Below, piece after piece: positions 26,831-42,184 of a stretch of 59,320 bases of DNA. Under the pieces are notes generated by a model. It was not told the DNA's origin. It was given only the letters and a program-made list of their open reading frames with translations, and did no database searches. The stretch's first letter is position 1; each line of letters begins with the position of its first letter. The stretch comes from Sinomonas notoginsengisoli. GTDB taxonomy: Bacteria; Actinomycetota; Actinomycetes; Actinomycetales; Micrococcaceae. The stretch spans positions 1 to 59,320 of the forward strand of contig NZ_JAIZDP010000015.1 in assembly GCF_021554725.1 (NCBI RefSeq), given 5' to 3'. Made by a program: the position numbers and the translations under genes.

Positions 26831-29377
26831 ATGCGAATCCCCCTTTCGTGGCTGCGCGAGTACACGCAGCTCCCGGCGGACGCGACCGCCGAGGACCTCA
26901 TGGCAGATTTGGTCAAGGTCGGCCTCGAGGAGGAGGCCGTCCACCGGCCCTCTGACTCGATCAGCGGCCCCATTGTGGTGGGACAGGTGCTCAGCGCCAT
27001 CAAGGAGCCCCAGAGCAACGGCAAGACCATCAACTGGTGCCAGGTGCGCCTGGTCCCCGAGGGCCAGGAGCAGACCCTCACCGGCAAGGGCATCGAACCG
27101 TCCGGGGTCCAGGGGATTGTGTGCGGCGCGCACAACTTCGCCCCCGGGGACAAGGTTGTCGTGACCCTGCCCGGAGCGACCCTGCCCGGCGACTTCCACA
27201 TCGCGGCCCGCAAGACCTACGGGCACGTCTCGGCCGGCATGATCGCCTCCGTCCGCGAACTCGGCATCGGTGACGACCACGACGGCATCCTCGTGCTCTC
27301 CCGGATCGGACTCGACCCTGAGGTCGGCACGGACGCCCTCGAGCTGCTCGGCCTGAAGGACGAGGCCGCAGAGATCAACGTGACCCCGGATCGCGCCTAC
27401 TGCTTCTCGATCCGGGGCATCGCCCGCGAGTACTCGCACGCGACCGGCACAGAGTTCACCGACCCAGCCACCCTTGTGAAGGCGCCCCAGGCGCTCGAGG
27501 GGGGCTACGGCGTCGTCCTCGACGACCGTGCCCCCATCTACGGCGTCCCCGGTTGCGACCGGTTCGTCGCGCGGACCGTCCGCGGGATCGACGCGACGAC
27601 GCCCACCCCACAGTGGATGGTGGCGAGGCTGAGACTGGCCGGCGTGCGATCCATCTCGCTTCCCGTGGACATCTCCAACTACGTGATGTTCGAGCTGGGC
27701 CAGCCCATCCACAACTACGACCTCGACAGGCTCACCGGCCCCATCACGGTGCGCCGGGCCGCCGCGGGGGAGAAGATCACCACGCTGGATGACAAGGTCC
27801 GCACCCTCGACGCCGAGGACCTCCTCATCACCGACGAGTCGGGGCCGATCGGCATCGCGGGCGTCATGGGCGGAGCCTCGACCGAGTGCTCCGAGACCAC
27901 CGTGAATGTCTTGGTCGAGGCCGCCCATTTCGACCCCGTGAGCATCGCACGGTCACGCCGGCGGCACAGGCTGCCGTCGGAGGCGTCGAAGCGCTTCGAG
28001 CGCGGCGTCGACTGGAATGTCGCGAATGTGGCGGCGCAGCGCGTCGTCGACCTCCTCGTGGAGCTCGGCGGAGGCGTCGCGGATGAGGGCGGCACGGATG
28101 TCGGGACTCCGCCCACGCCGGTGCAGATTGATCTGCCCGTCGGTTTCGCCTCAGAGCGGATTGGGATGGAATTCAGCGACGAGCTCATCACGCGCACCCT
28201 CGGCGACTTGGGGTCACAGGTGGAGCGGGCCGGCGCGGACTTCCGGGTCACCCCGCCGAGCTGGCGCAACGACCTCGAGACGAAGGAAGACCTGTCGGAG
28301 GAGATCGCCCGACTCGTCGGCTACGAGAAGATCCCCTCGACCCTGCCGGTGGCCCCTCCGGGCCGTGGCTTCACGCGCAGGCAGCAGCAGCGCCGCCGCG
28401 TCGTCCAGGCGCTCGCGGATGCAGGCCTGACGGAGATCCTCGCGTATCCGTTCGCCACTGAGGCCGAGAACGAGACATTCGGTGTGGCCGAGGAAGGTGC
28501 GCCCCGCCCGGCCATCAGGCTCGCCAACCCCCTGAGCGAGGAGCACGGCTGGCTGCGCACCTCGCTCTTGCCGGGGCTCATCGAGACGGCCAAGCGGAAC
28601 CACGGGCGCGGATTCCGGGACCTCGCGCTGTACGAGGCCGGCCTCGTGTTCCTGCCCGACGGTGAGGCCCTCGGCACCGCGACGATCCCGCCGCTCGGGG
28701 CGCGGCCCTCGGACGAGGTCCTCGACTCGCTCTACGATGGCCTGCCGGACCAGCCCCTCCACATCGGTGCGGTGTTCACCGGCAAGGATTCCCCCGAATC
28801 CCCGGGCAACGATCCGCGCCTCTGGGACTGGGTCGACGCCCTCGACGCCGCGCGGCTGGTCGGCGACGTCCTCGGCGTTGAGCTCGTGGTCGCCCAGGGC
28901 TCGCACCAGGCGTTCCACCCGGGCCGCGCCGCGCAGCTGTCGCTCCGCTCCGGTGAAGTGGTCGGTTACGCTGGCGAGCTCCACCCGAAGCTCCTCGCAC
29001 GCCTGGACATGCCTGCGCGTTCAGTGGCGTTCGAGCTCGACGCGGAGACCATGTTCGAGGCGGCTGCCGATGTGGTCGTGGCCAAGCCCCTCTCGACGTT
29101 CCCGGTGGCGACGCAGGACGTGGCACTCATCGTCGACGCCAAGCTGCCGGCCGATGCGGTGCTCGGCGCGCTGCGCGAGGGCGCCGGGGAGCTCCTCGAG
29201 GAGGTCCATCTTTTCGACGTCTACACAGGCAAGGGCATCGACGAGGGCAAGAAGTCCCTCGCGTTCGGGCTCCGCTTCCGGGCCGATGACCGTACGCTCA
29301 CCGCCGACGAGGCCTCGGAGGCCCGTGCGGCAGCCGTGGCGCTCGCGGCCGAGCGGTTCGGCGCGGTCCAGCGGTAG
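26831..29377 (+). CDS. pheT: Phenylalanine-tRNA ligase beta subunit
   Basis: Large subunit of PheRS, 848 residues. Visible domains are the start M-R-I-P-L-S-W-L-R-E-Y, a tRNA-binding EMAP/OB domain (about 40-155, G-Q-V-L-S and C-G-A-H-N-F-A-P-G-D), the B3/B4 editing domain (with V-D-I-S-N-Y-V-M-F-E-L-G-Q-P-I-H), the B5 domain, the catalytic-like core, and a C-terminal ferredoxin-like anticodon-binding domain (F-P-V-A-T-Q-D-V-A-L-I-V). The start at 26831 follows pheS by five bases; upstream in-frame codons lie within pheS. Confidence 0.98.
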   Translation: MRIPLSWLREYTQLPADATAEDLMADLVKVGLEEEAVHRPSDSISGPIVVGQVLSAIKEPQSNGKTINWCQVRLVPEGQEQTLTGKGIEPSGVQGIVCGAHNFAPGDKVVVTLPGATLPGDFHIAARKTYGHVSAGMIASVRELGIGDDHDGILVLSRIGLDPEVGTDALELLGLKDEAAEINVTPDRAYCFSIRGIAREYSHATGTEFTDPATLVKAPQALEGGYGVVLDDRAPIYGVPGCDRFVARTVRGIDATTPTPQWMVARLRLAGVRSISLPVDISNYVMFELGQPIHNYDLDRLTGPITVRRAAAGEKITTLDDKVRTLDAEDLLITDESGPIGIAGVMGGASTECSETTVNVLVEAAHFDPVSIARSRRRHRLPSEASKRFERGVDWNVANVAAQRVVDLLVELGGGVADEGGTDVGTPPTPVQIDLPVGFASERIGMEFSDELITRTLGDLGSQVERAGADFRVTPPSWRNDLETKEDLSEEIARLVGYEKIPSTLPVAPPGRGFTRRQQQRRRVVQALADAGLTEILAYPFATEAENETFGVAEEGAPRPAIRLANPLSEEHGWLRTSLLPGLIETAKRNHGRGFRDLALYEAGLVFLPDGEALGTATIPPLGARPSDEVLDSLYDGLPDQPLHIGAVFTGKDSPESPGNDPRLWDWVDALDAARLVGDVLGVELVVAQGSHQAFHPGRAAQLSLRSGEVVGYAGELHPKLLARLDMPARSVAFELDAETMFEAAADVVVAKPLSTFPVATQDVALIVDAKLPADAVLGALREGAGELLEEVHLFDVYTGKGIDEGKKSLAFGLRFRADDRTLTADEASEARAAAVALAAERFGAVQR

Positions 29378-29394
29378 CCGCGGTTCCGGCAAGC

Positions 29395-30159
29395 ATGCTC
29401 CTGCGGGCAGTGCCACTCGGGTCTCCCGGGTCGGCGCTGCCCGCTGGCGTCAGCACCCCAGGCGAGCTCGAGCGCGGTGCCGCGATCCTCGATCCGGTCC
29501 GCCGGCACGAGTTCCTTGCGGGGCGGCTGGCCCTGCGGGGACTCGTTGCCGAGGCGACAGGCGTCGACCCGATGTCCGTGGTCTCTGCGTACACGTGCCC
29601 GGAATGCGGTTTGGGTGAGCATGGCGTTCCCGGGTTTGCGCTCGCCTCATCCGGTCCGATTGGCAAGGATTCTGCGCACGACGCCGGGCGGCGGCTCCCG
29701 CTGGACCTCGCCGCGAGCATGTCCCGGGCGCGCGGCTGGGCCCTCCTGGCGGTCCAGGCCACCGGGGCTGGCTCCCACGACGTCGGGGTCACCCCGTGGC
29801 GCGCCGGGGTCACCCCGTGGGGCGCCGAGGTCACCCCGTGGGGCGCCCAGGTCTGGTCATGCGAGCCCGCCAAGCCAGGGATCGGCGTTGACCTCGCCTG
29901 CGTGGCGGACTTCCGTCAGGTGATCCCGCAGGCTGCCTTCTCGGTGGGCGAGCGGCGTCGTCTGTCACGTTCCGGTGACCCGGCGGCGGAAGCGGCCCGT
30001 CTGTGGGCTCGCAAGGAAGCCCTGCTGAAGGCGCTCGGCACCGGGCTGCGGGGCGATCCCACCGAGGTCGAGGCCGTTCGCGACCCCCGACTCCACGATC
30101 TGAACGCCCATGAGCTCGGCCTTCCGGAGGGATTCGTCGCGGCGCTGGCATTCAGTTGA
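29395..30159 (+). CDS. Sfp-type 4'-phosphopantetheinyl transferase
   Basis: Activates carrier proteins by moving phosphopantetheine from CoA to a serine. It has 254 residues. Diagnostic motifs are G-I-G-V-D (Asp166 binds Mg2+) and W-A-R-K-E-A-L-L-K (Lys207, Glu208, Lys212), plus R-R-H-E-F-L-A-G-R in the N-terminal half. Between the two half-domains lies a 21-residue triplet repeat (V-T-P-W-x-A) absent from usual family members. It is the nearest PPTase to the NRPS-like synthetase encoded 1.4 kb away on the other strand and is its probable activator. It starts 17 bp after pheT, so it may be transcribed with pheST. The ATG at 29395 has no strong ribosome-binding site. Confidence 0.88.
   Translation: MLLRAVPLGSPGSALPAGVSTPGELERGAAILDPVRRHEFLAGRLALRGLVAEATGVDPMSVVSAYTCPECGLGEHGVPGFALASSGPIGKDSAHDAGRRLPLDLAASMSRARGWALLAVQATGAGSHDVGVTPWRAGVTPWGAEVTPWGAQVWSCEPAKPGIGVDLACVADFRQVIPQAAFSVGERRRLSRSGDPAAEAARLWARKEALLKALGTGLRGDPTEVEAVRDPRLHDLNAHELGLPEGFVAALAFS
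29788..29850 (+). repeat. 21-bp tandem repeat, three copies, inside the PPTase gene
   Basis: Units at 29788-29808, 29809-29829 and 29830-29850 each begin gtcaccccgtgg and encode V-T-P-W-x-A-x. The copies differ at a few bases. The insertion keeps the reading frame and sits between the two half-domains, where it is probably tolerated as a loop. Confidence 0.9.
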
Positions 30160-30166
30160 CCCGTGT

Positions 30167-30208
30167 CGTTGGGACGTGGCCCTTCAACGTTGGGACATGA
30201 CCCCTCAA
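30167..30208. repeat. 21-bp tandem repeat, two copies, in a convergent gap
   Basis: Units 30167-30187 and 30188-30208 differ at three positions, all transitions. The unit begins cgttgggac. It lies between the convergent PPTase and M1 peptidase genes; no hairpin terminator was recognised there. Confidence 0.8.
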
Positions 30209-30232
30209 CACGGTGGGCGGCTGCATGAAGGC

Positions 30233-31606
30233 CTAGCTGGGCAGCGGCGGGAGCCTCCGCTCGAAGAGCCACGGGCGCAGGAGCTTCTCCGGCGAGAAGT
30301 CGCCGGTGCCGGCGCCGACACGGCCGAGGAGCTCGACGAAGTCTGCGGTCGACGCATTGGCATGCCGGTTCTCCTCGCAGAACGCCCGCAGGGCGCGGAA
30401 GAACCGGTCATCGCCCATGGCGCGGCGCACGGCGTGAAGGGCGAGGGCGCCGCGCTTGTACACCCGGTCGTCGAACATGAGGTCCGGCCCTGGGGCACCC
30501 ACCACGATGTCCTCCTTCTGGGACGCCACGAGCCTCCACGCCACCTGGGCACGGGCGCTCGCCGAGCCCTGACCTGCATGCTCGCTCCACAGCCACTCGG
30601 CGTAGCACGCGAAGCCCTCGTGCAGCCAGATGTCCTCCCAGCGCCGCACCGTCACCGAGTTCCCGAACCACTGATGCGAGAGTTCGTGGGCGAGGAGCCG
30701 CTGGGACTCCCAGGACCTCGTGATGTGGTTGCGGCCCATGATCGAGAGGGTCTGGGCCTCGAGCGGGATCTCAAGCTCGTCCTCGGTGACCACCACGGTG
30801 TAGTCCCGGAACGGGTATGGCCCGAACAGCTCGGAGAACAACTCCAGCATGGACCGCTGGTCACGCAGCCCTGTGAGCGCGTTCTGCCGCAGGGGGGCCG
30901 GCACCGCCGCGTACACGCCGACGGCGGGGGAGGACCGGTGGGGGATGCGGCCCAGCTCGAGCATCTCGTACCGGCCCACGAGCAGCGTGGCGAGGTACGG
31001 CGCCATAGGCTCGTGGACCTCGTACACCCACGTCTCGCGGCTCGACTTGCGCCGATGCCCCACGAGCAGCCCGTTGGAGACGGCCCGGTAGCCCGCGTCC
31101 GCCGTGGCGCTGATGCGGAAGGTGGCCTTCTGACTCGGGTGGTCATTGCACGGGAACCAGGTGGGCGCGCCGATGGGCTGGCCCGCCACGAGCACCCCGT
31201 CCGCGAGCTCTTCGAAGCCTACTTCGCCCCACTGCCCATTCACGGGGCCTGGGTTTCCCTCGTACCGAACTTCGAGGGTGAAGTCGGTTCCCTTGGCGAT
31301 CGGTTCCGCGGGGGAGATGCGCAGCTCGTTGCCGCGCTGGGACGTCTTGGCCGGGCGGGCGCCGTTGACCTGGAGCTTGGGAGCGCGGAGCCCTGAGAGG
31401 CTCAGCGTGACCGCCTCGAGGCGCTCTTTCGCGGTGGCCCGGATCAGCGCGCGCCCAGTGAGGCGATTGCTCGCGAGCCGGAGGTCCACCTCGAGGTCGT
31501 AGTGCCGCACCCGGTACGCGGCGCTCCCGTGGTCGGGCGTGTAGGGGTCCGGCAGGGCTGGGTTCTTGGACTTCTTGGCAGGATGGATGTGCTTGTTCGG
31601 GCTCAC
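30233..31606 (-). CDS. M1 family metallopeptidase (aminopeptidase)
   Basis: Zinc aminopeptidase, 457 residues, single-chain form without the large C-terminal domain of PepN. The zinc motif H-E-L-S-H (residues 307-311) with the third ligand Glu330 (W-L-H-E-G-F-A) is intact. The usual G-A-M-E-N exopeptidase motif is diverged to P-L-E-A-Q-T. No signal peptide is seen, so it should be cytoplasmic. The GTG at 31606 overlaps the stop of the Pls-type synthetase gene by four bases, so the two are co-translated; a GTG at 31633 is an alternative. Aminopeptidases of this kind can degrade poly-lysine, so the enzyme may trim or recycle the synthetase product; that link is inferred from context. Confidence 0.9.
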   Translation of the reverse strand: MSPNKHIHPAKKSKNPALPDPYTPDHGSAAYRVRHYDLEVDLRLASNRLTGRALIRATAKERLEAVTLSLSGLRAPKLQVNGARPAKTSQRGNELRISPAEPIAKGTDFTLEVRYEGNPGPVNGQWGEVGFEELADGVLVAGQPIGAPTWFPCNDHPSQKATFRISATADAGYRAVSNGLLVGHRRKSSRETWVYEVHEPMAPYLATLLVGRYEMLELGRIPHRSSPAVGVYAAVPAPLRQNALTGLRDQRSMLELFSELFGPYPFRDYTVVVTEDELEIPLEAQTLSIMGRNHITRSWESQRLLAHELSHQWFGNSVTVRRWEDIWLHEGFACYAEWLWSEHAGQGSASARAQVAWRLVASQKEDIVVGAPGPDLMFDDRVYKRGALALHAVRRAMGDDRFFRALRAFCEENRHANASTADFVELLGRVGAGTGDFSPEKLLRPWLFERRLPPLPS

Positions 31607-34600
31607 CGGCTCGGAGCCTCCGGCTCCTTCCACGGGACCACCGGATTGCCCCGCCAGTACGTCGCCGCGGGCACGTGCTCGCCGCGCATGACGAGCGAGG
31701 CCGGCCCCACGGTCGCGCCGTCGGCGAGCTCGGCACCCGGGAGGATGACGCCATGCGGCCCGAGGGTGGCGCCCTCGCCGAGCACGACGGCGTCGATCGC
31801 CATGATCCGGTCATGGAACAGATGGGTCTGCACCACGCAGCCTCGGTTCACAGTGGAGCTCGGACCGAGCGAGACGAGGTCCGCCTCTGGCAGCCAGTAG
31901 CTCTCGCACCACGTGCCCGAGCCGATCGTGGCTCCGAGGGACCGAAGCCACCACACGAGGGCAGGCGTGCCGGACGCCGCGCGCGCGAACCACGGCGCGG
32001 CGACCATCTCCACGAAGGTGTCCTGGACCTCGTTGCGCCACACGAACGAGCTCCAGAGCGGATGTTCGCCGGCCTTGATGCGGCCCACGAAGAGCCACTT
32101 CGCGACAGTCGCGCACGCCGCCGCAACGGCACCGGCCGCGAGCATGACGGCGCCGCAAAGGAGGGCGGCAGGAAGATAGCCCCATGCAGCGGCGATCCAA
32201 TCGAGCACGCAGAGCACGACGACGGCGATCGCCACCGTGAGCACGACCGGCACCGCGCGGCACAGCTCCCAGAGGGTGCGGGCCACCTTGAGGCGGGGCG
32301 CGGGGCGGAACGTCCGCTCGGTGTCCGTCTCAATTACGGTGCGTCGAAGCCGGACTGGAGGGCTGCCGAGCCACGATGAGCCGGACTTGGCCTTCTTCGG
32401 AGTGGCCGAGAGGACGGCGACGAGGCCGTCCTTCGGCACCGAGCGGCCCGGCGCCGTCATGCCCGAGTTGCCGAGGAACGCCCGCTTGCCGATCTTGGCC
32501 GGCGCAATCTTCACCCAGCCGCCGCCGAGTTCGTAGCTGGCCACCATGGTGTCGTCGGCGAGGAACGCGCCGTCCGCTACGGTGGTCATCTTGGGCAGCA
32601 GGAGAACCGTGGACGCCTCGACGTCCCTGCCGACCTTCGCCCCTAGGATCCGCAGCCACACGGGTGTGAAGAGGCTCGCGTAGATTGGGAAGAGGACGTC
32701 GCGGGCGAGGTCGAGCACCCGTTCAGTTGCCCACACCTGCCAGCCGGTCCTCGAGCGGACGCGGTGGTATCCCTCGGTGAGCCCGAGGCCGAGCAGGCGT
32801 GTCACACCGGCGATGAGCACGAGGTTGAGGACAAACCATGTGACCGCTGCGAGCGGCGTTGCGGGGAGCAGGACACCGAACGCTCCGTGGAGGGAGCCGT
32901 GGCCGCCGGCGGCCCAGACGAGGACGATGGCCGCGACCGCGGCCGACGCGAACGGAATCAGGGCCAGGAGGGCCGAGCCAGCGGCAAACAGGGCGATCCA
33001 TGCGGCCTCGCGGAGCCGGGACCGCGGTACGGTGGCCTCCGGCCAGTGCGGCTTGGCCTTGCCCAGGCGCGTGGCTGGGGAACCGGAGACGCGCAGGCCC
33101 TCCTTGACCTTCCCCGAGACGGCCGACCCCGGGTCCACGACTGCTCCCGCGCCGATGCGGGCCCCTGGCAAGATGGTGCTGCGCGCGCCGATCGTTGCGC
33201 CAGCGCCGATGCTGATGCCGCCGAGGTATATCCAGTCGCCGTCGATCCACCAGCCCGAGAGATCGACCTCGGGTTCGATTGAAGCCCCCGGGCCAATGGA
33301 GAGCATTCCGGTGACGGGCGGGACGGAGTGCAGCACCGCGTCCCGGCCGATCTTCGCCCCGAGGGCGCGCGCGTAGTAGGGGACCCAGGGTGCGCTCGCG
33401 AGGCTGACGGCTTGGGCCAGGTCGGCAATCTGCTCGGCGAGCCACAGCCTCAGGTGGACGCTGCCCGAACGCGGGTAGCGGCCCGGGGTGACGCCACGCA
33501 GCAGCGCCCGCGAGGCCGCGACCGAGATCGCCATGCGGCCCCACGGGCTGACGAAGACGAGCCACATGGCAGCGATCCACCACCACGACAGCGTCGGGGC
33601 CGCGGACCAGCCGTCGACGGCAGAGAGCACGTTGTTCCCGACGGCGAGGTAGGTGAGCCACCGCATTCCCACGAGGATGAACAGCGGGACGCCCATGAGG
33701 GTCTGGACCGCCTGGGTCCGTCGCGAGGTGGGGCGCACGGTCCGCTCCCGCCCTGCGGCAGCTGCGCCTGTGCCGAGCACCGCCTCCACGAGCGCTCCGA
33801 CTCGAGGATGGGCGTACAGATCCGCGACTGTTACCGTCGGGTAGCGGCTGCGGAGAGCCGAGACCAGTTGGGCGGCGGAGAGCGAGCCGCCGCCGTGGGC
33901 GAAGAAGTCCGCATCGAGCCCAGGGGCGCCGGTGCCGAGTACCGCACCCCACTGCTCGACGATCCAGGCGGCGTCCTCGGGCAGCTCGAGGTCTGTCCCT
34001 TCCTCATCGTCGACGTCTGGGAGTGGCCAGGGCAGGGCGTTGCGGTCCACTTTGCCGCTCGTCTTGGTGGGGAGGGAGCCGACGACGGCGAGCACCGGCA
34101 CGAGCGCGGCCGGCAGTTCTCGTGTGAGCTGCTTCCGGGACGCCACGAGATCTGGGCTCGCGCCGTCGGCCGGTGTGAGGTACCCGACGAGGATCTGGTT
34201 CCCGGCCGCCGTCGTGCGCACCGCTGCGGCCGCGCCGGCGACGCCGCGTAGCGCCTGGAGCGCGGCGTCCACCTCGCCGAGCTCGATGCGGCGGCCGCCG
34301 AGCTTGACCTGCTCGTCGGCGCGTCCCTGGAAGATGAGTCCCTCCGGCTGGTACTGCACCAGGTCCCCGGAACGGTAGGCACGCTCCCAGCCGAGGGTGG
34401 GCATGGACGCGTACTTCTCGGCGTCCTGGGCGGGATCGAGGTAGCGGGCCAGCCCGACGCCGCCGATGATGAGCTCCCCGACGCCGCCCTCGGGGACGGG
34501 CACCCCGGCCGCATCGACGATCGCGAGGTCCCAGCCGTCCAGTGGCAGGCCGATCCTCACCGGACCGGCACCGCCCATTTGCGCCGCGCAGGCGACCACG

Positions 34601-35586
34601 GTGGCCTCGGTGGGCCCGTAGGTGTTCCACACTTCGCGCCCCTCGACGGCGAGCCGGGCGGCGAGCTCGGGCGGGCACGCCTCGCCGCCGAAGATCAGCA
34701 GGCGCACGTTCTCGAGCGCCTCGGCCGGCCACAGGGCGGCGAGGGTGGGCACGGTGGAGACGACCGTAATGCCGCGTTGCACGAGCCAGGGCCCGAGGTC
34801 CATGCCCGTGCGGACGAGGGCCCGCGGCGCGGGGACGAGGCACGCGCCGTGGCGCCAAGCGAGCCACATCTCCTCGCACGAGGCGTCGAAGGCGACCGAG
34901 AGTCCGGCGAGCACCCGGTCCTCGGGCCCGATCGGCTCGCTCTGCAGAAAGAGGCGCGCCTCGGCGTCCACGAATGCCGCGGCCGAGCGGTGCGTGACGG
35001 CCACGCCCTTGGGGGTCCCGGTCGAGCCCGAGGTGAAGATGATCCAGCAGTCGTCCTCGGGAACGGGCGGCCGCGGGGCCGGGAACGGCTTGGGATGCCT
35101 CTTGTCCACGACCATGGACCCGTTCCCGCGGAGAATCCCGGCTACCTTTGCCTCGCCGAAGACGAGCTTGGCCCGCTCGTCGGGGTCATCGGCGTCGACC
35201 GGGACGTAGGCGGCACCGATGAGCATCGTGGCGAGGATCGCGATGTAGAGCTCGGCGGTGCCGGACGGGATGCGCACGCCGATGCGGTCGCCTGCGCCGA
35301 GGCCTGCAGCGTGGAGCTTCCTCCCCATCGCCCGGACCTCCTCGAGGAGCTCCGTGTAGGAGAGCGCACGGCTCCCGTCGTCCAGTGCGGGGGCTTCAGG
35401 GAAGGCTCCCGCGCTCGCGCTGAGGACGTCGATGAGGGTCCTGGGCTCCGGGGCTCGATCCGAGCCGGGCAGCTGAGGAGGGAAGGTCTGGTCTACGGGG
35501 CCGGGTTTTGTCAGGACTGTCTCGAGGTGCTTTTCGTCGGGTGGTTCGTTCACGGCCGTGCCTTCAGGCTCATTGCGCGGTGTCAT
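31603..35586 (-). CDS. Pls/PosA-type membrane nonribosomal peptide synthetase (poly-amino-acid synthetase)
   Basis: A 1327-residue protein with the architecture of epsilon-poly-lysine synthetase (Pls) and poly-ornithine synthetase (PosA). The adenylation domain spans ~50-525: F-T-S-G-S-T-G-T-P-K-G at 184-194, N-T-Y-G-P-T-E at 321-327, Y-R-S-G-D-L at 404-409, G-K-V-D-R at 511-515. The carrier domain has F-F-A-H-G-G-G-S-L with Ser568. Six transmembrane segments follow (about 625-650, 667-690, 862-893, 905-933, 1110-1130, 1138-1163), interleaved with three left-handed beta-helix/acyltransferase-like domains (~740-840, 975-1060, 1210-1315). In Pls these domains link the monomers. The selectivity residues suggest a basic amino acid. 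ATG 35586 is given; GTG 35553, with G-A-A-G-G upstream, is an equally good start. It is the middle gene of a qor-pls-M1 operon. Confidence 0.92.
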   Translation of the reverse strand: MTPRNEPEGTAVNEPPDEKHLETVLTKPGPVDQTFPPQLPGSDRAPEPRTLIDVLSASAGAFPEAPALDDGSRALSYTELLEEVRAMGRKLHAAGLGAGDRIGVRIPSGTAELYIAILATMLIGAAYVPVDADDPDERAKLVFGEAKVAGILRGNGSMVVDKRHPKPFPAPRPPVPEDDCWIIFTSGSTGTPKGVAVTHRSAAAFVDAEARLFLQSEPIGPEDRVLAGLSVAFDASCEEMWLAWRHGACLVPAPRALVRTGMDLGPWLVQRGITVVSTVPTLAALWPAEALENVRLLIFGGEACPPELAARLAVEGREVWNTYGPTEATVVACAAQMGGAGPVRIGLPLDGWDLAIVDAAGVPVPEGGVGELIIGGVGLARYLDPAQDAEKYASMPTLGWERAYRSGDLVQYQPEGLIFQGRADEQVKLGGRRIELGEVDAALQALRGVAGAAAAVRTTAAGNQILVGYLTPADGASPDLVASRKQLTRELPAALVPVLAVVGSLPTKTSGKVDRNALPWPLPDVDDEEGTDLELPEDAAWIVEQWGAVLGTGAPGLDADFFAHGGGSLSAAQLVSALRSRYPTVTVADLYAHPRVGALVEAVLGTGAAAAGRERTVRPTSRRTQAVQTLMGVPLFILVGMRWLTYLAVGNNVLSAVDGWSAAPTLSWWWIAAMWLVFVSPWGRMAISVAASRALLRGVTPGRYPRSGSVHLRLWLAEQIADLAQAVSLASAPWVPYYARALGAKIGRDAVLHSVPPVTGMLSIGPGASIEPEVDLSGWWIDGDWIYLGGISIGAGATIGARSTILPGARIGAGAVVDPGSAVSGKVKEGLRVSGSPATRLGKAKPHWPEATVPRSRLREAAWIALFAAGSALLALIPFASAAVAAIVLVWAAGGHGSLHGAFGVLLPATPLAAVTWFVLNLVLIAGVTRLLGLGLTEGYHRVRSRTGWQVWATERVLDLARDVLFPIYASLFTPVWLRILGAKVGRDVEASTVLLLPKMTTVADGAFLADDTMVASYELGGGWVKIAPAKIGKRAFLGNSGMTAPGRSVPKDGLVAVLSATPKKAKSGSSWLGSPPVRLRRTVIETDTERTFRPAPRLKVARTLWELCRAVPVVLTVAIAVVVLCVLDWIAAAWGYLPAALLCGAVMLAAGAVAAACATVAKWLFVGRIKAGEHPLWSSFVWRNEVQDTFVEMVAAPWFARAASGTPALVWWLRSLGATIGSGTWCESYWLPEADLVSLGPSSTVNRGCVVQTHLFHDRIMAIDAVVLGEGATLGPHGVILPGAELADGATVGPASLVMRGEHVPAATYWRGNPVVPWKEPEAPSR

Positions 35587-35606
35587 GGTGCGGCCATTGT
35601 TTCAGG

Positions 35607-36578
35607 TCAGGGGACGAGGAGGACCTTGCCGGTCGTGGCGCGTCCCTCGAGCGCGGTGTGGGCGGCGGCGGCCTCCCACAGCGGGAACTGCGCACCGATG
35701 CGGACGTTGAGGGTGCCGTCCGCCACGGCTCCGAACACCTCGGAGGAGCGCCAGCGCCGCTCCGCGGCGTTGAGGAGGTGGTGCGCGATGGTCGGTCGCG
35801 TGAGGAAGAGCGAGCCACCGGCATTCAGCCGCTGGACGTCGACCGGCGGCACGGGGCCCGAGGCGGCACCGAAGAGCACGAGCATCCCGCGGAGGCGGAG
35901 GCACTCGAGCGAGCCGTCGAAGGTGTCCCGCCCGACGCCGTCGTACACCACATCCACGCCCGCACCGGAGGTGAGGTCGCGCACCTGAGCAGGGAAGTCG
36001 TGGTACTGGATCACGTGGTCGGCGCCTGCCGCGGCCGCGAGTTCCGCCTTGGCGTCGGTGGAGACGGTGGTGATGACCCGTGCGCCGCGCGCCTTGAGCA
36101 TCTGGATGAGCAGGAGGCCGACGCCGCCGGCCCCTGCGTGCACGAGCGCCGACTGGCCCGGTTCGATGTGGAAGGTCGAGGTGACCAGGTAGTGCGCGGT
36201 CATGCCCTGGAGGGGAAGCGCCGCGGCGGTCAGGAGGTCCACGCCTTCCGGGACCGGTAGCGCCTTGTCCGCATCGATGAGCGTGTACTGGGCATAGGTG
36301 GCGCGGCCCTCGGCTGTGGCCACCCGGTCGCCCACGGCGTAGCCTGCCTCCTCCGCGCCGGGCCCGAGGGCGGTCACGACACCGGCTGCCTCGGCACCGG
36401 GGGTGAAGGGGAACTGCACCTTGTAGAGGCCTTGCCGCTGGTACGTCTCGATGAAGTTCACTCCGGTCGCGGCGACGCGCACGAGGAGTTGGCCTGGGCG
36501 CGGCTCCGGCATCTCAATCTCGGCTGGGGCAAGTACCTCGGGTCCTCCGGGGGTGGCGGCGACGATGGCGTTGATCAT
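35607..36578 (-). CDS. NADPH:quinone oxidoreductase (QOR-type zeta-crystallin family)
   Basis: A 323-residue zinc-independent MDR oxidoreductase. It starts M-I-N-A-I-V-A-A-T-P-G-G-P-E-V-L, has the catalytic-site N-F-I-E-T-Y-Q-R-x-G-L-Y typical of QOR, and the NADPH-binding H-A-G-A-G-G-V-G-L-L. It probably reduces quinones one electron at a time. G-A-G-G-A-G lies just before the ATG at 36578. Its stop is 20 bp before the pls ATG, so they are probably co-transcribed, although a metabolic link to the synthetase is not evident. The promoter faces the argC control region. Confidence 0.92.
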   Translation of the reverse strand: MINAIVAATPGGPEVLAPAEIEMPEPRPGQLLVRVAATGVNFIETYQRQGLYKVQFPFTPGAEAAGVVTALGPGAEEAGYAVGDRVATAEGRATYAQYTLIDADKALPVPEGVDLLTAAALPLQGMTAHYLVTSTFHIEPGQSALVHAGAGGVGLLLIQMLKARGARVITTVSTDAKAELAAAAGADHVIQYHDFPAQVRDLTSGAGVDVVYDGVGRDTFDGSLECLRLRGMLVLFGAASGPVPPVDVQRLNAGGSLFLTRPTIAHHLLNAAERRWRSSEVFGAVADGTLNVRIGAQFPLWEAAAAHTALEGRATTGKVLLVP

Positions 36579-36660
36579 GGCTCTCCTCTACGTCTTGCTG
36601 CTGTCGTTGGGTGTTCCATGGGTCCGCACCCATCCTAGAGAAGGAATCTATGCATAAATA

Positions 36661-38927
<2,267 letters not shown>

Positions 38928-38934
38928 GGCTGGC

Positions 38935-39903
38935 ATGACAGAGAGCCCAGAGAGCACCAGGGCGAACATCCGGCTCGCCATGGACAAGGCCGAGACCCTC
39001 ATCGAGGCCCTGCCCTGGATCCAGAAATTCGCCGGCACCACCATGGTGGTCAAGTACGGCGGCAACGCGATGGTCAACGACGAGCTCCGCCGCGCCTTCG
39101 CCGAGGACATCGTGTTCCTCCACCACGTGGGCATCCGGCCGGTTGTCGTGCACGGCGGCGGCCCGCAGATCAGCGCCATGCTGAACCGCGTGGGCATTGA
39201 GAGCGAGTTCAAGGGCGGACTGCGCGTCACCACGCCGGAGGCCATGGACGTGGTCCGTATGGTCCTCACCGGCCAGGTGGGCCGCGAGCTCGTGGGTCTC
39301 ATCAACTCGCGCGGCCCCTACGCGGTGGGCCTCTCCGGCGAGGATGCGGGCCTCCTGCGTGCCGTCCGCACCGGTGCCGTTGTGGACGGCGAGGAGGTTG
39401 ACCTCGGCCTCGTCGGCGAGGTGGTCGGCGTCGAACCCGGCGCCGTCCTGGACATCCTCGAGGCCGGCCGCATCCCGGTCATCTCGGGAGTGGCCCCGGA
39501 GGTCGCCACGGGCAGCGGGACCCAGGACGGCGGCCTGCCCGCCTACCAGCCGACGGGCCAGGTGCTCAATGTCAACGCGGACACAGCTGCCGCGGCTGTC
39601 GCCGTCGCCCTCGGGGCTTCGAGGCTCGTGATCCTCACGGACGTGGAGGGCCTCTACCGCAACTGGCCCGACAAGGACTCGCTCATCTCGCAGGTCTCCG
39701 CCTCCGAGCTGCGCGGGATGCTCCCGGGCCTCGCCTCGGGCATGATCCCGAAGATGGCGGCATGCCTCAAGGCGGTGACCGAAGGCGTGGACCGGGCCGC
39801 GATCGTGGACGGCCGGAGCCCGCACACGATGCTCCTCGAGGTCTTCACGAACGCAGGCGTCGGAACCCAGGTGGTGCCCGACGGGGAAGGACAGCACGCA
39901 TGA
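38935..39903 (+). CDS. argB: Acetylglutamate kinase
   Basis: Phosphorylates N-acetylglutamate and is normally the arginine-feedback-regulated step. It has 322 residues. Motifs K-Y-G-G-N-A (K near residue 38), H-G-G-G-P-Q-I, V-N-A-D-T-A-A and G-M-I-P-K-M are typical. The ATG at 38935 is eight bases after the argJ stop; an earlier in-frame ATG lies inside argJ. An N-terminal helix before the kinase core ([12 protein letters not shown]) suits the arginine-sensitive hexameric form. Confidence 0.97.
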
Positions 39904-41216
39904 CCACCGAGAACCTCCCCGAGGCCCGTCCTCTGTCCGAGCTAGCGGGCGCCTCGAGCGGATCTGAGTGGCTGGCCCGTTACCAGGACTCGCTCATGGG
40001 TGTCTTCGGCACCCCGCAGCGCGTTCTCGTGCGCGGGCAGGGCTGCTATGTGTGGGACGCCGACGGCAAGCAGTACCTCGACCTCCTCGGCGGGATTGCG
40101 GTCAACGCGCTCGGCCATGCCCACCCGTTCGTCACGAGTGTGATCTCCTCACAGCTGTCCACACTTGGCCACGTCTCGAACTTCTTCACAAGCCCCACGC
40201 AGGTGGCCCTCGCCGAGAAGCTCCTTCAGGTCACCGGCGCTCCCTCCGGCTCGAAGGTGTTCTTCGCGAACTCAGGCACCGAGGCGAACGAGGCGGCGTT
40301 CAAGCTGGCGCGCCGCAACCGGGGGACGCCAGAGAAGCCACGCACCAAGGTGGTGGCGCTTGAGGGCGCCTTCCACGGCCGCACCATGGGCGCGCTCGCG
40401 CTCACGGCCAAGAAGGCCTACCGCGAGCCGTTCGAGCCGTTGCCCGGCGGCGTCGTGCACGTGGCGTTCGGGGACCTCGACGCGCTCGCCGCAGCAGTGG
40501 ACGAGACAACGCAGGCCGTGTTCCTCGAGCCCATCCAGGGCGAGGCCGGCGTCATTCCCCTCCCGGCCGGCTACCTCGCTGCCGCCCGGAAGATCACGCA
40601 CGACGCCGGGGCCCTCCTCATCGTCGACGAGGTCCAGACCGGGATGGGCCGCACCGGCACCTGGCTTGCCATCGAGGGCTCGGGCATCGTGCCCGACGCC
40701 GTCTCGCTCGCCAAGGGCCTCGGCGGCGGGTTCCCGATCGGGGCCCTCGTGACCTTCGGCGCCGACAACAGCGCACGCCTCGCCGCCGGCCAGCACGGCA
40801 CCACCTTCGGCGGGAACCCGGTCGCCACCGCCGCCGCGCTCGCCACCGTCCACGCGATCGAGACCCAAGGCGTCCTCGCGAACGTGCGCTCAGTGGGCGA
40901 GCGGCTTCGCTCCGCACTCGCCGCGCTGCCGGAGGTCGCCCAGGTCCGCGGCCGCGGGCTGCTGATCGGCATCGACCTCGTGGGCCCGGGCGGGGACGGC
41001 ACTGCGGTGGCAGCCGGCGCGAACCTGGCGGGCGCCGTCGTCAACGCCGCGCTCGAGGCCGGCTTCATCATCAACGCGCCCGGACCGCGCACCATCCGCC
41101 TCGCCCCGCCGCTCATCCTTACGGCGGAGCAGGCCGACACCTTCATTGCGGCGCTGCCGGGCCTCGTGGCCACCGCCGCGGGGCAGCTTGCCGCTGCAGA
41201 AAAGGAGACCACGTGA
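39900..41216 (+). CDS. argD: Acetylornithine aminotransferase
   Basis: PLP-dependent class III transaminase that makes N-acetylornithine. It has 438 residues. Visible motifs are [30 protein letters not shown], the [11 protein letters not shown] segment and the PLP-lysine in S-L-A-K-G-L-G-G-G. The ATG at 39900 overlaps the argB TGA by three bases. A slightly long N-terminus (about 25 residues) precedes the homology. Confidence 0.96.
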
Positions 41217-42184
41217 CCATCCGGCACTTCCTCAAGGACACCGACCTCAGCCCTGCAGAGCAGGCCGAGGTCCTCGACCTCGCGGTGCGCATGAAGGCTG
41301 CTCCGTACGAGGCGCAGCCGCTCGCGGCGGAGGGCGCGGCCCGCAAGACGGTGGCCGTGATCTTCGACAAGACCTCGACCCGCACCCGCGTGTCCTTCTC
41401 GACCGGCGTGTCTGACATGGGGGGCACCCCGCTCATCATCAACCCGGGCGAGAGCCAGATCGGGCACAAGGAGTCGGTCGAGGACACCGCGAGGGTCCTC
41501 GAGCGCATGGTCGCGGCCATCGTGTGGCGCACGGGGGCCCATCAAGGGCTCGTGGACATGGCCGCCAACTCACGGGTGCCCGTGGTCAACGCCCTGTGCG
41601 ACGACTACCACCCGTGCCAGCTGCTCGCCGACTTGCTCACTGTCAAGGAACACAAGGGCAAGCTCGCCGGGCTGACCATGGCGTACTTGGGCGATGCGGC
41701 GAACAACATGGCCAACTCGTACCTCCTTGCCGGCGCCACGGCGGGCATGAACGTGCGCATCGCCGGGCCTGAAGGTTACCTGCCCGCCCCGGAGATCGTG
41801 GCCGAGGCCGAGGATGTCGCCGCGACGACGGGCGGCTCGGTGCTCATCACAGTTGATCCGGTCGCGGCGCTCGAGGGCGCCGACGTCGTCGCGACTGACA
41901 CCTGGGTGTCGATGGGCCAGGAGGACGAGAAGGCCGAGCGGATGCAGCTCTTCCGTGACTACTCGGTGGGTGGCGCCGCGATGGCCAAGGCCGCGCCCGA
42001 CGCCGTGTTCCTCCACTGCCTCCCGGCGTACCGCGGGTACGAGGTCGCCGCCGAGGTCATCGATGGCCCGCAGTCGATCGTGTGGGACGAGGCCGAGAAC
42101 CGGCTGCATGCCCAGAAGGCCCTGCTCGCGTGGGTGCTGCACTACTCTGGCCAGGCCGTCGTCGAAGGCCTGCCGGCGGTGTGA
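41213..42184 (+). CDS. argF: Ornithine carbamoyltransferase, anabolic
   Basis: Converts ornithine and carbamoyl phosphate to citrulline. It has 323 residues. The carbamoyl-phosphate motif S-T-R-T-R, H-Q-G-L, D-D-Y-H-P-C-Q-x-L-A-D and the ornithine-loop H-C-L-P-A are all present. The GTG start overlaps the argD stop by four bases, so argJ, argD and argF are all translationally coupled to the gene before. Confidence 0.97.
   Translation: MTIRHFLKDTDLSPAEQAEVLDLAVRMKAAPYEAQPLAAEGAARKTVAVIFDKTSTRTRVSFSTGVSDMGGTPLIINPGESQIGHKESVEDTARVLERMVAAIVWRTGAHQGLVDMAANSRVPVVNALCDDYHPCQLLADLLTVKEHKGKLAGLTMAYLGDAANNMANSYLLAGATAGMNVRIAGPEGYLPAPEIVAEAEDVAATTGGSVLITVDPVAALEGADVVATDTWVSMGQEDEKAERMQLFRDYSVGGAAMAKAAPDAVFLHCLPAYRGYEVAAEVIDGPQSIVWDEAENRLHAQKALLAWVLHYSGQAVVEGLPAV

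Follow-up and report, generated by a model that had tools for sequence, protein, structure and literature searches.

A probable epsilon-poly-L-lysine cassette between pheT and argC in Sinomonas notoginsengisoli

What is made by a large synthetase encoded between pheT and argC in an actinomycete, and which of its neighbours belong with it? We addressed this question in a 59,320-nt contig of Sinomonas notoginsengisoli (assembly GCF_021554725.1, contig NZ_JAIZDP010000015.1, positions 1 to 59,320 of the forward strand), hereafter the window, in which the pheT-argC interval holds four genes: a 4'-phosphopantetheinyl transferase (PPTase) on the forward strand and, on the reverse strand, an M1-family zinc peptidase, a 1327-aa synthetase and an oxidoreductase. 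We are highly confident that the locus is a cassette for epsilon-poly-L-lysine, a natural preservative, in which the PPTase would load the synthetase (Pls), Pls would polymerise lysine and a PldII-type peptidase would protect the producer, and that it was inherited mostly vertically.

The synthetase and its predicted monomer

The synthetase gene (31603..35586, reverse strand) encodes a protein that scored 690.9 bits against TIGR02353, the Pls/PosA family (cut-off 423.1), over residues 627–1316, and that matched the Pfam AMP-binding (PF00501), carrier (PF00550) and hexapeptide-repeat families. Its closest match in the PDB is 7wew, the adenylation (A) domain of an epsilon-poly-lysine synthase (667.7 bits), to which its own A domain (residues 44–524; 34015..35457) is 68% identical across 473 aligned positions. 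The carrier (T) domain (33778..33966) holds Ser568 within GGGSL, a serine that is invariant in all 16 aligned sequences.

The ten pocket residues of the A domain (D234, A235, E238, S277, I298, G300, T322, V330, V331 and K512) give the specificity code DAESIGTVVK, which is the code of 7wew at 10 of 10 positions; the positions were placed using GrsA numbering together with the PosA residues in print. The same code was found in 130 of 147 aligned rows (the window, 7wew and 145 loci), the remainder being DAESIGTVIK (9), DFECLSVVTK (6), DFEYLGTVTK (1) and one truncated row (L068). Position 2 of the code is reported to be Met in PosA, Phe in poly-diaminopropionate (PDAP) types and Ala in lysine types (PMC10522769), and as it is Ala in the window, lysine is the predicted monomer. 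An ornithine-type (PosA) assignment was considered and rejected, position 2 being Ala235 and not Met.

The C-terminal region (residues 605–1327; 31606..33774) was modelled with AlphaFold from a 58-sequence alignment (pLDDT 92.2, pTM 0.91). The model presents three units, in each of which a helix pair leads into short helices and then a strand-repeat domain, and a hydropathy scan placed hydrophobic stretches at residues 630–649, 860–937 and 1104–1167; model and hydropathy together thus predict six transmembrane (TM) helices and three beta-helix units in tandem. Fold matches of the model, the best with E 2.6e-6, were serine and maltose acetyltransferases; the TM-score to the whole 605–1327 query was only 0.13, as these matches cover single units. 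By sequence, none of the best 60 of 167 PDB matches had its best stretch beyond residue 634. Among the residue types checked, D1011, R1082, E1186, E1234 and H1255 are identical across all 58 rows, which suggests His1255, in the third unit, as a candidate catalytic residue. The overall architecture is shared by PosA, the delta-poly-L-ornithine synthetase of Acinetobacter baumannii, which differs in its code (DMEHNGTVSK) and in forming a single-gene operon, and the terminal domain of which is about 20% identical to that of S. albulus Pls (PMC10522769). As the C-terminal region of PosA has already been modelled as three packed beta-helices in that work, the present model is not new.

The initial annotation had read the 1327-aa protein as a Pls/PosA-type synthetase with an A-T-six TM-three beta-helix layout and Ser568 as its carrier residue, and had proposed profile search and structure prediction against Pls and PosA as a check; both bear it out, and of the lysine and ornithine options that it left, the pocket is of the lysine type. 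The protein thus carries all of the Pls features that were tested (A and T domains, the TIGR02353 match, the layout and a lysine-type code), and it very probably strings lysines into epsilon-poly-lysine. From its code, and as shown in print for relatives, the A domain would adenylate L-lysine and load it onto the carrier; the three beta-helix units, similar to hexapeptide acyltransferases, would then join each lysine to the epsilon-amino group of an acceptor, presumably free lysine or the growing chain, the enzyme itself being membrane-bound.

The phosphopantetheinyl transferase and the extent of the cassette

The PPTase gene (29395..30159, forward strand, 254 aa) begins 17 bp after the end of pheT on the same strand and ends 1.4 kb from the end of pls. 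Its product matched PF01648 with 43 bits (cut-off 25) and carries the conserved D, E and K of Sfp-type enzymes within GVD-E186-WARKEALLK. Of 52 aligned PPTases, 51 have E186 and all have the G-D and KE-K residues, the latter partly by construction because 51 of these sequences had been picked with a motif demanding those residues. The N-terminal half gave no Pfam match, and a sequence search of the PDB returned weak matches, to AcpS. Besides this longer PPTase, the genome holds one AcpS-sized PF01648 match, and it encodes three carrier proteins: one of acyl carrier protein (ACP) size, Pls and a 927-aa protein.

To characterize the neighbourhood of pls in other genomes we used the best 80 named loci, to which all named-locus counts refer; the family assignment of most of their genera is presumed, five genera having been looked up. 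Among these, 24 of 33 loci in Micrococcaceae and 5 of 7 in Microbacteriaceae have a PPTase within 3 kb of pls, against none in Brevibacteriaceae (0/2), Mycobacteriales (0/33) or the remaining groups (0/5); it is that close in 25 of 32 other loci that share the window code. The PPTase hidden Markov model (HMM), based on 52 sequences of which 51 were motif-found and nearly all came from Micrococcaceae and Microbacteriaceae, agrees with PF01648 over 19 named-locus genomes. In this PF01648 control, three Microbacteriaceae loci (L131, L135, L144) have the PPTase inside the locus beside the M1 gene, while 13 genomes outside the two families (L128, L130, L139, L140, L146, L149, L154, L164, L166, L167, L169, L172 and L179) have PPTases, none within 3 kb of pls. 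On the strength of this control, PPTase adjacency is a trait of Micrococcaceae and part of Microbacteriaceae, and not of all pls loci nor of every Micrococcaceae locus. Unlike the window, two Streptomycetaceae examples (L098, L099) have no PPTase within 8 kb on each side.

We also counted PPTases across 245 sampled genomes of the family (PF01648, E ≤ 0.001, tallied by hand). At least two matches were found in 126 of the 136 genomes with Pls and in 36 of the 109 that lack it (p 5.8e-24 by Fisher's test, which takes no account of relatedness), and in genera with both Pls states the association is one-sided, the Mantel-Haenszel denominator being 0. When referring to these counts, it should be noted that the Pls-positive set includes a group of 42–57% identity, partly with a different pocket code, and that PF01648 misses divergent PPTases: the HMM recovered one beside the M1 gene in G033, G040, G052 and G103, each entered in the counts as a Pls genome with a single PPTase, and a further one each in G084 and G119, which lack Pls. 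Within the genus of the window, the only carrier matches in G008 and G013 are an ACP-sized protein and Pls, yet each of these genomes has two PPTase matches, and Pls-less G014 has one carrier and one PPTase.

What the site looks like without pls was examined in the stretch upstream of argC in 16 of the 109 Pls-less genomes, chosen by hand. The quinone-oxidoreductase-like gene (35607..36578 in the window, reverse strand, 323 aa) is near argC in all 16 (107–1908 bp away, and at most 315 bp in 14), and pheT was seen at 14. None of the 16 sites has an M1 gene or a full Pls, four showing only partial A-domain matches of 24–28%, and the PPTase is absent from 14 and present at two (L207 and L212, of one genus). 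In L203, a Pls-less member of the window's genus, the gap between the oxidoreductase and pheT is 120 bp. From the content of these empty sites, the cassette is PPTase-pldII-pls, the genes of which tend to be present or absent as a group; the oxidoreductase, which stays by argC in 16 of 16 genomes without pls and pldII, was rejected as a member. The block 29395–36578 of the initial annotation therefore stands for the PPTase, peptidase and synthetase, with the unit now ending at 35586; its Sfp-type PPTase at 1.4 kb is confirmed, and it does tend to accompany Pls.

Could the PPTase instead be a general-purpose enzyme that stands beside pldII by inherited synteny rather than by function? We consider this somewhat unlikely, although a number of observations weigh against a PPTase dedicated to Pls. 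Because 36 of 109 Pls-less genomes have at least two matches and the window's own genome has a third carrier, the enzyme may have clients besides Pls; 15 of 17 members of one Pls-less genus (g3) have at least two matches, and this therefore speaks against exclusivity. Nine of 33 named Micrococcaceae loci and 7 of 32 other code-matching loci lack a PPTase within 3 kb of pls, and three of the former (L115, L157, L173) have a long PPTase elsewhere in the genome by PF01648. The gene was retained alone at two of the 16 empty sites, and outside the two families the count near pls is 0 of 40, with a PPTase elsewhere in all 13 genomes searched. Given the 17-bp spacing, it probably shares a transcript with pheST and not with pls. 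On the other side, the PPTase has stayed with the cassette in 6 of the 7 named Micrococcaceae loci that have no pheT or argC within up to 10 kb on each side (L110, L113, L117, L121, L122 and L159, but not L112), it accompanies pls in 5 of 7 Microbacteriaceae loci (three PF01648-confirmed), it lies on the opposite side of pls in L116 and L124, and the association within genera of both Pls states is one-sided. Adjacency thus supports a working PPTase-Pls link in Micrococcaceae and part of Microbacteriaceae, in which the PPTase would activate Pls by placing the pantetheine arm on Ser568. We found no PPTase partner of Pls described in the open-licence PMC literature, although the link may be in print elsewhere; the accessible part of one paper on non-alpha poly-amino acids (NAPAA) names a PPTase of C. 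glutamicum but makes no connection with Pls.

The third carrier (L219:1533-4316, contig C23) is a 927-aa A-T-Acyl_transf_3 protein, a membrane acyltransferase fusion resembling non-ribosomal peptide synthetases (NRPS). It occurs in 3 of 15 genomes of the genus and is a possible second client of the PPTase.

Genomic address, descent and integrity

Within the genus, 14 of 15 genomes score above the TIGR02353 cut-off; for the family the figure is 140 of 245, and 136 of the 245 have a Pls relative at E ≤ 1e-150. Within up to 10 kb on each side, pheT or argC is found in 26 of 33 named Micrococcaceae loci and 0 of 47 other named loci, and argC lies inside the fetched region in 29 of 32 other code-matching loci. 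The pheT-argC interval is thus the usual address of pls in Micrococcaceae, where pls-type clusters have been reported as shared (PMC11078813), so that the flanking genes are as first described but their being there is not surprising. Over 48 loci and the window, Pls distances correlate with those of pheT (r = 0.91), argC (0.86) and M1 (0.92), each with a Mantel p of 0.001, a test that demonstrates relatedness rather than strict vertical descent. As Pls distances track these genes, we read the descent of the cassette as mostly vertical in the family, with many losses and some moves; a recent horizontal acquisition by the window's species was rejected on the correlations with pheT and argC.

The chances seem about even for a broader claim, namely that in Micrococcaceae and part of Microbacteriaceae PPTase-PldII-Pls is a portable three-gene unit, placed early between pheT and the oxidoreductase-argC pair and since lost or moved largely whole, that in many genomes the PPTase mainly serves Pls, and that the polymer is a retained family trait rather than a sporadic antibiotic.

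A further alternative, which we hold to be unlikely, is that the locus is intact but silent, or decaying, and gives no product under ordinary conditions. What counts against an active system is that C. variabile itself yielded no epsilon-poly-lysine in culture (PMC8117764), and for this reason the window locus may be silent as well. Some relatives are broken: in L068 (G002) Pls matches only from residue 303, the early A domain seeming to be missing or replaced while the peptidase and PPTase remain, and in L198 (G152) Pls has two internal stops and the peptidase is matched only over residues 20–247, with the PPTase present. All three window genes, however, are full length with intact motifs, Pls distances follow pheT, and of the 13 listed stop-containing Pls matches, three were inspected, two of which (G032, G135) proved to be normal gene ends and only G152 broken. 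A promoter scan of 29300–36800 gave a single site, at 36661 on the forward strand near argC, of no use for the pls locus, and two terminator-like sites in the same range do not rise above shuffled sequence.

Other Pls-like genes were encountered in these searches. A second class in family genomes (L183–L191) is 44–52% identical with code DAESIGTVIK; an M1 gene is immediately downstream in none of the nine and nearby only in L185 (4.0 kb) and L186 (1.5 kb, divergent). Six distant synthetases (L069, L070, L072, L073, L075, L079) are 27–30% identical with code DFECLSVVTK, with Phe at position 2 as reported for PDAP and poly-diaminobutyrate (PDAB) types; L069 and L070 have an argD-like aminotransferase (32–33%) about 240 bp away, recalling dat beside diaminobutyrate-polymer synthetases. 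A Pls-like gene is also present on five Mycobacterium avium/intracellulare plasmids; in the plasmid locus that was viewed (L102), its neighbours are large NRPS genes and genes for a cysteine-synthase-like protein and a SagB-type dehydrogenase, and no M1 gene was seen. In Arthrobacter sp. StoSoilB13 (L100), a 1.35-Mb record labelled as a plasmid holds the pheT/argC neighbourhood of pls, and may for that reason be a piece of the chromosome or a second chromosome. Beyond the block, the window continues with an ordinary arginine biosynthesis run, argC-argJ-argB-argD-argF (36697–42184); ornithine carbamoyltransferase was confirmed by Pfam, and the other names are our presumption from the reading-frame sequences.

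The coupled peptidase and the place of the locus among known systems

The peptidase gene (30233..31606, reverse strand) encodes a PldII-like M1 enzyme (PF17900 and PF01433) with the zinc motif HELSHQWFGN...E at residues 307–330 and conserved Glu283 and Tyr383; the pattern HExxHx18E is kept in 128 of 129 relatives, the exception being L198. Translation most likely begins at the GTG at 31606, which falls within the GTGA (31603..31606) at the end of pls, whereas the list of open reading frames had given 30233–31633. The initial coordinates thus hold for the PPTase, synthetase and oxidoreductase, with this start as the correction, and the coupling through GTGA of a zinc peptidase to the synthetase is as annotated and matches the known partner PldII. 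An M1 gene lies at most 800 bp downstream of pls on the same strand in 79 of the 80 named loci (three of them at 637–665 bp) and in 32 of 32 other code-matching loci, and an in-frame NTGA overlap is found in 54 of 113 M1-adjacent loci that share the window code.

PldII is reported to be translationally coupled to pls and to degrade epsilon-poly-lysine outside the cytoplasmic membrane (PMC9223678). A Streptomyces record annotated with pls and an M1 metallopeptidase (L099) has a 4-bp gene overlap; since the A domain of this pls is 89% identical to 7wew, we take S. albulus PldII to be an M1 enzyme. The window peptidase is 45% identical to the L099 M1, and by analogy with PldII it would cut epsilon-poly-lysine and mainly protect the producer. 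One point that fits this poorly is its N-terminus, which by eye has no obvious signal peptide, though PldII is reported outside the membrane. That the peptidase sets chain length instead of protecting the cell is rather improbable: repression of pldII lowered self-tolerance and lengthened chains to more than 40 residues (PMC9223678), but according to a review, inactivation of Pld and PldII changed neither production nor the degree of polymerisation (PMC8506220). Given this conflict, as far as the accessible parts of both sources go, self-protection is the better supported role; of the two functions first suggested for the peptidase, it is the one in print for PldII, and chain-length control is disputed.

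It is very improbable that the product of the synthetase is a different cationic polymer (delta-poly-ornithine, poly-diaminobutyrate, poly-diaminopropionate or poly-beta-lysine), since, although pocket codes are degenerate and PosA resembles lysine types save for Met in place of Ala at position 2 (PMC10522769), the window agrees with 7wew throughout and has Ala there, not Met, Phe or Gly.

An epsilon-poly-lysine cassette should also be compared with what is in print. The pls-pldII operon of S. albulus and relatives resembles the window in domain order, A-domain code and coupled peptidase, but does not share its position, with pheT on one side and the oxidoreductase-argC pair on the other. Operons of pls and the peptidase gene are described from Streptomyces and Corynebacterium, C. 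variabile and other coryneforms have the pair as in the window, C. variabile pls produced epsilon-poly-lysine in S. coelicolor, and homologues of Pls have already been published for Arthrobacter, Glutamicibacter and Micrococcus (PMC8117764); the accessible text of that paper mentions neither a PPTase partner nor an insertion site. The novelty first attributed to a cationic homopolymer system in a Micrococcaceae-like bacterium was thus overstated, as far as these sources go (PMC8117764, PMC9223678, PMC11078813): pls, pldII, their coupling, the idea of self-protection and the occurrence in Arthrobacter-type bacteria are already known. What may be new is the PPTase-Pls association and the anatomy of the empty site, with the cassette as PPTase-pldII-pls minus the oxidoreductase.

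If this reading is true, many fast-growing, non-filamentous Micrococcaceae would be potential makers of epsilon-poly-lysine, as 136 of 245 sampled genomes have a Pls relative, and the PPTase partner would offer a simple genetic handle whose effect on heterologous production can be tested. That the cassette has been retained for so long prompts one to ask how the polymer benefits Micrococcaceae.

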